51,678 nt of DNA, from contig BGZO01000007.1 in NCBI GenBank assembly GCA_003864475.1, forward strand, positions 1-51,678, written 5' to 3'. The translations under genes were made by a program, and so were the position numbers. The stretch is from Candidatus Termititenax persephonae. GTDB taxonomy: Bacteria; Margulisbacteria; Termititenacia; Termititenacales; Termititenacaceae. The notes beneath the pieces were generated by a model, which saw only the letters and a list, made by a program, of their open reading frames with translations, was not told the DNA's origin and ran no database searches. Positions 1 to 30,779 of the stretch are shown here, piece by piece (position 1 is the stretch's first letter; the number at the start of each line of letters is the position of its first letter).

Positions 1-82
1 CCCCCGTTTTTGGCGTAGGTACGCTGAGAATCTAGTATTTCCTGTATTTAAACATTCAATAAATTTCTCCTGCGTTACGTAG

Positions 83-22482: not shown

Positions 22483-23550
22483 ATGTCGGTTATCGCAATT
22501 ATCAACCAGAAAGGCGGCTGCGGCAAAACCACCACGACTATCAACTTGGCGGCAGCCTTAACCAAAAAAAAGCAACGAGTTTTGATTGTTGATTTTGATC
22601 CGCAAGGACATTCGTCGCTGGGGCTGGGGATAGACAGTCAGCAGATAAAACACACGGTGCAAAATGTGTTGCTGGACGACACAGCGTTTGCCGAGGCGGT
22701 CATCGCCCTGCCCGAAAATCTGGATTTGTTACCGTCCAATATCACGCTGGCGGCCTTAGAACAGAAACTGTCCGGACTGACCGGGCGCGAATATTATCTG
22801 CGTCAATTGCTGGAAACACAAAAACAAAATTACGACACGATAATTATTGACTGCCCGCCGCACCTCGGTCTCCTGAGCGTCAATGCCTTGCTGGCCGCCG
22901 ACCGTGTTATCGTGCCGGTCGAACCCGGTAAGTTTGGCCTAGATGGCCTGCAAAAACTGGTGGAAACAATCCAAATGCTCTGCCAAAAAACCAACCATCA
23001 GCTGGACATCAAATATCTGCTTTCGCTGTTTGACTTGGAGTCTGAGTTTGCCGAAACATTCGCCCAAAGATTCCGCCGCGATTACGGCGACAGCCTACTA
23101 CACAGCCGCATTCACCGTTCCAGTGTCATTCGCGACGCGGCACAGGCTGGCAAAGCCGTCGTGAATTTTCAAACGCGCTCCCTGCCCTATCTTGACTACA
23201 TGGCCTTGGCCAACGAGGTCATTCTCTGGCAAAACCAAGAAATACTCGCCAAGGTCATCAATAGTCCGGCCGCTCCGCCGCAAAAAACACCGCTGGGCGT
23301 ATGCTTTACCTTGCAGACTGAGGATGCCGAGGCCGTGCATCTCGCCGGGGATTTCAACAACTGGATTCCCGAAGCCGCACCGCTAATCAAGCTGGAACAA
23401 AAAGGCGTATGGTACACTTTCCTGTCGTTGCAGGACGGGCGGTACAATTACCAGTATGTCGTCGACGGCAAATATCAAACCGACCCTGCCAACCCTGAGG
23501 TTGCCGACTCGCCTTTCGGCGTAAAACAATCAGTGCTGGAGATTGGTTAA
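22483..23550 (+). CDS. ParA/Soj-type ATPase fused to a C-terminal CBM48/AMPK-type glycogen-binding domain
   Basis: IINQKGGCGKTTTTINLAAAL, IIIDCPPHLGLLSVNAL; C-terminal VHLAGDFNNWIPEAAPLIKLEQKGVWYTFLSLQDGRYNYQYVVDGKYQTDP. Confidence 0.9.
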   Translation: MSVIAIINQKGGCGKTTTTINLAAALTKKKQRVLIVDFDPQGHSSLGLGIDSQQIKHTVQNVLLDDTAFAEAVIALPENLDLLPSNITLAALEQKLSGLTGREYYLRQLLETQKQNYDTIIIDCPPHLGLLSVNALLAADRVIVPVEPGKFGLDGLQKLVETIQMLCQKTNHQLDIKYLLSLFDLESEFAETFAQRFRRDYGDSLLHSRIHRSSVIRDAAQAGKAVVNFQTRSLPYLDYMALANEVILWQNQEILAKVINSPAAPPQKTPLGVCFTLQTEDAEAVHLAGDFNNWIPEAAPLIKLEQKGVWYTFLSLQDGRYNYQYVVDGKYQTDPANPEVADSPFGVKQSVLEIG

Positions 23551-23652
23551 ACCGCGCGAGGGCGCAAGCCGTATGCTCCATGTACGGCAATATCAGCGCA
23601 AAGCATTTTAATCCACGTAGCGGAGGTGTCCAGCAACGCACGGGTGTACGGC

Positions 23653-23684
23653 GTTTCAATCCACGTTCCTGTATGAGGAGCGAC
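23653..23684 (-). repeat. Isolated type I-C-like CRISPR repeat unit (GTCGCTCCTCATACAGGAACGTGGATTGAAAC on minus strand)
   Basis: 32 nt, 30/32 identical to the copy at 29256; GTCGC...GTGGATTGAAAC typical of I-C repeats. Confidence 0.6.
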
Positions 23685-23880
23685 CTGTCCCCAAGTCGGC
23701 TGTACAGGCGTTATTCCTGACATATTTAACCTCCAAAAGTGGTGTAAGTCGCGCCCTGCCCAGCGCGTCATCGTATGCCCACATGCGACCATTTTGCCTG
23801 AAATAAATAATTTTTCCATTAGATTTTTGAGTAAAAAACTGGACATTGATTTTTTCAGGGAAAATGCTAGAATTTTAGCG

Positions 23881-24539
23881 ATGAGTTATAATAGATTTTC
23901 ACCCCCCCCCCCCCCCCCCCCATTTTTTCGCTTAGGTACGCCAAAAATCTAACATATTATTGCAAGCGATTTGCAACAATAACCCTGCTGTCCCTGTTTG
24001 TTGTCGGCTGCGGGGTAACAAAAGATGCTTCGGGCGGCGGCGGGAGCAGTAGCGGCACCGCGCCGCCAAGCGCTCCGGTGGAGCCTAAGTTTTACACGCT
24101 GACAATATCGAGGCGCAAGGATGTAACCGCACCAACGGTTAATTTTTTCGTGGACACGGTGCTGATTGAGAATACCGATTGCCCGCGCTCCTCAAAAGAA
24201 TACAAGGACCCGAACTACCCATACGACACAAATAATCCCCATTATTGGTTTAAGGACATTTCCTATACCCTGACGGAGAATACAAAAGTTTACGCCGTGT
24301 TAAATACCAATATTGTGGGAGCCGACTGGCAAAAACATAATTATTTTAGTTTTGAGGTCAGTAAAAATATTGGGACAGAGAACACCCTAACAAAATATTA
24401 CGCGCAAGAAAAAGATGCGACGCTGGAGCTCGTAATGACCGCTAATTATATTGTCAGCAGATTTGCTCTTGATTGGTGGTCATATTCCCAGTATGACCCT
24501 GACAGCAAACCGCCGAATATTATTACAAAGCCGGAGTGA
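23881..24539 (+). CDS. Candidate phase-variable lipoprotein (frame OFF as assembled)
   Basis: ATG AGT TAT AAT AGA TTT TCA (C)20 then frame IFSLRYAKNLTYYCKRFATITLLSLFVVGC-G; in frame only when C count is a multiple of 3. Confidence 0.6.
23902..23921 (+). repeat. Poly-C tract (20 C)
   Basis: Direct count. Confidence 0.95.
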
Positions 24540-24572: not shown

Positions 24573-25124
24573 ATGTGGTCGTTTATAAAAAATATACAGT
24601 CTAATACCGATGTTATTCCTAAAAATGACGCAATGTGGATTATTGGTATTTTTGCAATTATACTAGGATTTCTAATTTATAGTTTTTTCAACGATTTTAT
24701 TGAAGAAAATCGGAAAGCTAATATAAGAATAACATTTAAGAATTTTTTTGAGGGTTTCATTACCCAATGTGTTGGAGTGGTTATTTTCATTATAGTTTTG
24801 TTTTGTATTGTTCTCCTGTTAGATATTGGATATAGAGAAATAACTAAAGAAAAACCCAAGACAGAAGAAAAAGTTAATATCCGTAATTCATCATTGCCAT
24901 ATAAGACTGTAAATGGCTTCCAGATTGAAAGAACTTTTAATGTCGGTAATTATGAAGTTGTTGAAACAATAGATATAGTATCAATGAATAAATATATTGA
25001 CACACCCAATTATTACATAATAATTGACGACAAAGGCAATAAATACACTCTTATCAAAAACAGCAACAATAATGACCCACTAAACTTATTTGAAGATTTA
25101 AGCACAGCAGATTTTGATTTTTGA
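24573..25124 (+). CDS. Hypothetical membrane protein
   Basis: Two TM segments; RBS ggagaaaagataattATG. Confidence 0.6.
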   Translation: MWSFIKNIQSNTDVIPKNDAMWIIGIFAIILGFLIYSFFNDFIEENRKANIRITFKNFFEGFITQCVGVVIFIIVLFCIVLLLDIGYREITKEKPKTEEKVNIRNSSLPYKTVNGFQIERTFNVGNYEVVETIDIVSMNKYIDTPNYYIIIDDKGNKYTLIKNSNNNDPLNLFEDLSTADFDF

Positions 25125-29841: not shown

Positions 29842-30452
29842 GTGTTTAGGTTTATTTTACCCCCCCCCCCCCCAATTTTTCGCGTAGGCACGCCAAAAAC
29901 ACAGCACATTATTGCAAATACATCGCAATAATAATCCTGCTGGCGTTCTTCTCCGCAGGTTGCGGTAAGACAGCGGAGCAAACCGACAGCGGAAGCTCTG
30001 TCGCATCGCCCAGTACTCCTACTCCGCCGCCGGAAACGCCTAAGGTTGTAGCCGAGGACTTGCGCGGGGAGTGGTATTCGGAATATGGAATACAAAAATA
30101 TCCAGTAACATACGGGGATATATTAAAATCATATGCTGATATATATTTGTATCGCTTCACAATAACCAGCGCGACAATGAATATGAAGAACGGAAACTCT
30201 TTTAATGCGTATACGACCGAAAATAGAATTGCCATAAAAGAAACAGACGAAACTATTTATACTTTTACCCGTATTCCCTTATCGGAATATCAGCAGGCTT
30301 ACGATGATGCCGTTGTTGAGGGAAACCCTGGGAAAATACTACAAGCGCAGCATAGGCTTGATGCCGCGCTGGTGCATACTCCAATAGATTTTACTAGCAA
30401 TAATGTTACGACCCGACTATGGCGCGAGCCGGAAACATGGCCAGCGGAATAA
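29842..30452 (+). CDS. Candidate phase-variable lipoprotein (frame OFF as assembled)
   Basis: GGAG-N6-GTG TTT AGG TTT ATT TTA (C)14 then frame NFSRRHAKNTAHYCKYIAIIILLAFFSAGC-GK; in frame only when C count is a multiple of 3. Confidence 0.65.
29860..29873 (+). repeat. Poly-C tract (14 C)
   Basis: Direct count. Confidence 0.95.
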
Positions 30453-30497: not shown

Positions 30498-30779
30498 ATG
30501 GCAGAAAAGAATAAGAGTGAACAGGAATCGGAATTACTTGAATGGAGTGCTTGGACTTTTTTTAAAATAACTGGAATGGTAATTTTCATTGGGATAGGAA
30601 TTCATAGAATTTTTGTACCGCCGGAAATTGTGGGCGGAGATGCATATAACTATATAATTGGAACTTTACAAGCCGTTTGCTCTTTCATTCTTGCGCTTAT
30701 TTTAGCTGTTCTGTATAAGGGCACAAATGTAGAGACGATAGTTAAGGCGGAAAAAAGGCCTGAATCTAAAAAAAAATAA
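30498..30779 (+). CDS. Hypothetical small membrane protein
   Basis: RBS taggaggcttatcATG; two TM segments. Confidence 0.6.
   Translation: MAEKNKSEQESELLEWSAWTFFKITGMVIFIGIGIHRIFVPPEIVGGDAYNYIIGTLQAVCSFILALILAVLYKGTNVETIVKAEKRPESKKK

Follow-up and report, generated by a model that had tools for sequence, protein, structure and literature searches.

A genus-wide element of start codon, leader, C tract and hairpin in Candidatus Termititenax as a candidate phase-variation module

A run of 20 C was analyzed inside the start of a lipoprotein gene of Candidatus Termititenax persephonae (contig BGZO01000007.1; the window, i.e. the whole stretch of DNA that was analyzed, comprises 51,678 nt). Judged by its sequence, this tract is a member of a Termititenax element family composed of a start codon, a short leader, a C tract of 7 to 22 nt (C7-C22) and a conserved 24-nt hairpin. 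A broader reading, with a probability of about 0.55, is that in Termititenax a modular, genus-wide element would place many unrelated genes of surface or secreted proteins under random ON/OFF control, which would be inherited and would act on transcription or translation. The module would consist of start, leader, C tract and a pause-like hairpin, with a terminator in a third of the copies, often with the stop of the long frame in its loop. For the window locus itself, the proposal of the preliminary description that the C20 tract is a slipped-strand ON/OFF contingency switch of the lipoprotein gene is likely to hold, and across the family random changes in C number probably switch genes for presumed surface proteins on and off.

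Start, tract and reading frame in the window

The tract occupied positions 23902-23921 of the forward strand with an A (23901) just 5' of it, and the exact count of 20, as read from the assembly, is uncertain. In the window, runs of at least 20 C and of at least 14 C were expected 5.5e-9 and 4e-5 times, respectively, and the longest other C run, its two tracts set aside, was 6. The features of this locus and of the other copies are given in Table 1.

Table 1. Features of the C-tract elements in the window
Feature	Position	Strand	Remark
Putative promoter, TTGATT-16-TAGAAT	23846..23873	+	transcription predicted to begin at the A of ATG 23881 or beside it (leaderless)
Start codon and 7-codon leader, MSYNRFS	23881..23901	+	sole start able to reach the lipoprotein frame
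C20 tract, polyproline codons	23902..23921	+	lipoprotein OFF at 20, predicted ON at 18 or 21
Lipoprotein reading frame, 205 codons, lipobox VVGC	23922..24539	+	no family match
24-nt palindrome (hairpin) conserved in the element family	23924..23947	+	weak in the window copy, -2 kcal/mol
Downstream gene, 183 aa, apparent membrane protein	24573..25124	+	possibly co-transcribed
Second switch: GTG start, GGAG upstream, leader VFRFIL	29842..29859	+	
Second tract, C14	29860..29873	+	OFF in the assembly
Second fused lipoprotein frame, 192 codons	29874..30452	+	out of frame
Third copy, of a class A leader: hairpin behind a C tract of at least 5 nt	1..30	+	truncated by the contig end

The lipoprotein frame begins IFSLRYAKN...FVVGCG, with a hydrophobic segment and the lipobox, and a TAG sits directly 5' of ATT-TTC-A in this frame. 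It had been stated that the frame has no normal start 3' of the tract and that the ATG of MSYNRFS is the only one in reach. Both statements were confirmed: the first in-frame ATG, GTG or TTG was GTG 24078, beyond the lipobox, and ATG 23881 lies 21 nt before the tract, reading into it as ATG-AGT-TAT-AAT-AGA-TTT-TCA. Since the lipoprotein frame has no start of its own, it is joined to ATG 23881 only if the C count is divisible by 3. At 20 C, the ATG frame continued past the tract as FFRLGTPKI and then met a stop, so that the product ends 9 codons on, in line with the early stop that had been described. In the proposed mechanism, the ribosome would translate MSYNRFS and then the C run as polyproline, would enter the lipoprotein frame only at a C count that is a multiple of 3, and at 20 would terminate at that stop. 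A mixed population would arise as DNA polymerase slips on the tract.

The contingency architecture that had been suggested was supported by this frame logic and by the lack of an alternative start: a long simple repeat lies at the start of the coding sequence, and its unit number sets the frame with no start that bypasses it. Further support came from the second window lipoprotein (C14, out of frame), from the many C tracts at gene starts in this genome, and from an open counterpart in a congener (L097 in genome G003, C14), in which a single open frame runs from the ATG through the tract into the lipoprotein, with 302 codons past the tract. The open form at this related locus and the OFF form in the window belong to two different loci.

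Upstream of the start, TTGATT-16 nt-TAGAAT was the sole promoter-like match within 23700-24100, with TAGAAT ending 7 nt before the ATG, though by itself this match is weak (1 found versus 0.5 expected in shuffles). No Shine-Dalgarno sequence precedes ATG 23881. In six sibling leaders (L061, L067, L077, L089, L093 and L096), TATAAT was located exactly 7 nt before the ATG, also without a Shine-Dalgarno sequence. Based on the promoter match and the spacing in these siblings, a leaderless mRNA is the simplest reading, and the transcript probably starts at ATG 23881. The element begins at the promoter (23846), further 5' than the preliminary description had placed it. An effect on transcription had also been considered there, on account of a TATAAT at 23887-23892. 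The tract might then change the spacing of a promoter or the region in which the transcript starts; poly-C within promoters can alter transcription in other systems. This TATAAT is indeed present, 9 nt 5' of the tract, but it has no -35 partner, and TTGATT-16-TAGAAT is the better promoter, with a -10-to-ATG spacing of 7 nt like that of the siblings. Moreover, other siblings use Shine-Dalgarno starts, and in each of these the start codon precedes the tract. A transcriptional effect of this kind was therefore disfavoured and appears quite improbable.

The first lipoprotein matched no family in Pfam, PHROGs or NCBIfam, and an initial genome scan with it as query returned no relatives. The two window lipoproteins shared 45% identity over about the first 55 residues past their tracts (residues 2-56 of the query), and the third, truncated copy precedes a lipoprotein gene of the MKKIILAIFTI type (198-2063). 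Small genes for apparent membrane proteins (24573-25124 and 30498-30779) come after the two window lipoproteins, and the neighbour of L091 is similar. Two other features were observed on the 5' side of the C20 tract. About 200 bp away, two degenerate CRISPR-like repeat copies (GTCGCTCCTCATACAGGAACGTGGATTGAAAC, minus strand) at 23603-23690 may be the remnant of an array, and at 22483-23550 a ParA/MinD-type ATPase carries a fused C-terminal glycogen-binding AMPK1_CBM/CBM48 domain.

Family, distribution and tract lengths

A total of 40 distinct Termititenax copies were collected. A search of 85,462 species genomes for eight C and the palindrome, separated by 0-5 nt, gave 25 matches, 24 of which belonged to Candidatus Termititenax aidoneus NkOx7-01 or to termite-gut Margulisiibacteriota MAGs of the same genus or family as the genome of the window. 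The match in an Alistipes MAG (L116) was an ordinary AT-rich stem and was taken as chance. In a looser search within the family, the reversed control pattern gave 6 matches versus 41 in one genome and 0 in the others. The element was not found in viral contigs, and a viral origin was rejected. C tracts of at least 12 numbered 3 to 34 per congener and 0-2 in nearly all other genomes of the phylum, while the present genome contained about 20 tracts of at least 14 and 39 places with at least 9 C after a non-C base.

In fused copies the frame past the hairpin is the protein itself; these were both window lipoproteins, L064/L097, L091, L094, L069 and L056. In leader copies the gene is a separate one, and its own start lies about 80-300 nt further on. 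The genes behind leaders include those for lipoproteins of the MKKIILAIFTI type, proteins with an FGE-sulfatase domain (found in the second gene past the L041 leader, E 1.8e-31) and large unclassified proteins. Clear starts, either a Shine-Dalgarno sequence or a -10 at 7 nt, preceded most tracts.

Among the copies with a clear start, 4 of 24 were in the long frame in the assemblies (p = 0.13 against one in three), which is compatible with one in three. Near-identical paralogues differed in their C counts (9/10/13 and 8/11). Several contigs ended inside C tracts, as expected for repeats or length-mixed templates. These contig ends, together with the two window lipoproteins being out of frame in the assembly, would also fit a decayed or chance feature, a pseudogene or an assembly artefact. 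However, the same anatomy was observed across independently assembled genomes, and the frames were intact over 205 and 192 codons; such an origin is highly unlikely.

Hairpin and terminators behind the tract

The consensus hairpin of the 40 Termititenax copies was TTTTTnGCGTAGnTACGCnAAAAA. A strict palindrome pattern detected 20 sites in two genomes, only 2 of which, by inspection, were clearly without a C tract; most palindromes thus go with a C tract. The window hairpin folded no better than shuffles; its weakness and the missing Shine-Dalgarno sequence count against the switch. Over the family, 89% of the cells were paired and 15 two-sided changes were counted, a number reached in 6/500 shuffles; for the pairs with a two-sided change the corresponding figure was 137/500, and G-U and A-C occurred 18 and 7 times, so the covariation is suggestive only. 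Depending on the fused gene, translation passes through the hairpin in one of two frames, giving IFSLRYAKN in the window, IFRVNKPKI in L091 and IFGVNTRKI in L094. Peptide conservation was therefore rejected as its cause, and the hairpin is conserved as nucleic acid. A role as an aid to DNA slippage was likewise rejected, because tracts without a hairpin were equally long. Folding was weaker in fused than in leader copies (median -2.6 versus -8.8 kcal/mol, p = 0.0008; the copies are not independent), which suggests that the hairpin serves a leader function.

A homopolymer with an adjacent stem-loop is also the layout of a frameshift signal, and the conserved hairpin keeps a fixed position past the tract. 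RNA polymerase or the ribosome might accordingly slip on the C run, aided by the hairpin 1-5 nt 3' of it, and some product would arise in each frame regardless of the DNA length. Yet tracts that lack the hairpin were just as long, close paralogues differed in tract length, and the hairpin was weakest in the fused in-frame copies, opposite to the prediction for a frameshift stimulator. Recoding was thus considered rather unlikely.

Returning to frame choice by the DNA tract, a canonical intrinsic terminator was identified in 12 leader copies from five genomes, starting 49-69 nt past the tract (at about +50 to +90). In these copies the two short frames ended 23-52 nt before the terminator. The long frame had its stop in or beside the terminator loop in L014, L015, L057, L074, L088 and L098, and passed the terminator, ending shortly ahead of the next gene or a little way inside it, in L023, L024, L041, L045, L049 and L068. 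Coding constraint on the long frame was detected in two groups of leaders, the terminator-bearing group T and class A. The synonymous/nonsynonymous counts of the long frame were 73/74, compared with 28/104 and 14/114 for the other frames, in one of these groups, and 66/63, compared with 49/93 and 35/104, in the other. No such constraint was detected in the leader groups modC and B. No recognisable intrinsic terminator was found in class A and B leaders, nor any at the window tracts 23902 and 29860. Since class A and B lack a terminator, the attenuator reading applies to only part of the family, where it is strong. The 12 terminator-bearing copies would be phase-variable transcription attenuators: the choice of frame would decide whether a translating ribosome reaches the terminator ahead of the separate gene, presumably causing antitermination. 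The window copy, without a terminator, is not itself an attenuator; about one third of its family looks like one.

A run of identical codons ahead of a terminator is the classical attenuator layout as well, and polyproline stalls ribosomes. The Pro codons could then sense charged tRNA or stalling, as in a proline/EF-P attenuator, and the length of the tract in base pairs would be irrelevant. But CCC alone was used, never CCA, CCG or CCT, and the lengths were not multiples of 3; what is maintained is therefore the DNA homopolymer rather than a run of proline. In addition, glycosyltransferase and methyltransferase gene starts carry C tracts without a leader. An attenuator of this classical type is very improbable.

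Known systems and other homopolymer tracts

Phase variation is known mostly from pathogens, and Candidatus Termititenax is attached to spirochaetes and protists. If the genus-wide reading is true, uncultured termite-gut Margulisbacteria would possess a large phase-variable surface repertoire. The poly-C/G contingency loci of Neisseria, Campylobacter and Helicobacter carry a homopolymer near the 5' end of surface or glycosylation genes, where the frame sets ON/OFF, and the Termititenax loci resemble them in both respects. To our knowledge, those tracts are not parts of a shared module, whereas the Termititenax tract lies in a repeated start-leader-hairpin module common to unrelated genes. The trp and his attenuators combine a leader peptide, an early hairpin and a terminator under the control of tRNA charging. 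The terminator-bearing Termititenax leaders have the same parts, but control would be exerted by the inherited reading frame instead of tRNA charging.

In pil1/pil3 of Streptococcus gallolyticus, the repeat number of the leader ORF sets the position of its stop (PMC3894217), and the 12 terminator-bearing Termititenax leaders share this geometry. In pil1, leader stops at least 28 nt before the terminator gave low expression, expression was high when the stop lay inside the terminator or past it, and mutants supported ribosome-driven antitermination (PMC3894217). The Termititenax elements differ from pil1/pil3 in that the repeat unit is a single C and not GCAGA, that a second conserved hairpin lies past the tract, that tens of copies exist in the genus rather than two loci, and that in the window copies the lipoprotein is fused on directly, without a terminator. 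If the reading is true, repeat-controlled leader-peptide attenuation, as proven in pil1, would be a copied module used genus-wide.

C tracts without the hairpin were located at or just before genes of a family-2 glycosyltransferase (L009) and of FkbM and other methyltransferases (L019, L020). A GT11 transferase gene (L022) has a C tract ahead of its ATG, also without the hairpin, and a G run lies within a DUF5672 gene (L013). Genes of this sort are what a phase-variable surface repertoire usually comprises. Among tracts of at least 9 C in this genome, TTA preceded 17/32 and A preceded 25, whether or not the hairpin was present. At L036 (3278-3286), a C9 lies inside a gene and the broken frame resumes like a variable FGE-type domain, a possible internal phase switch.

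A diversity-generating retroelement as the origin of the C run and hairpin was rejected, because the reverse transcriptases do not look DGR-like and a non-exhaustive search showed no template repeat at the tracts. The three reverse-transcriptase matches in the genome were clustered on one contig and, by inspection, appeared to comprise a DRT3-type pair and another reverse transcriptase; the three genes span 8 kb (L083, 2051-10153), and two overlap in the manner of DRT3-type defence.

Another repeated leader without the palindrome, ATGCAAGT-C11/12-ATCGATATATAGG...GGGAGGTGATT, was observed at L044 (four copies) and L047, and one of its frames ends beside the start of the following gene.
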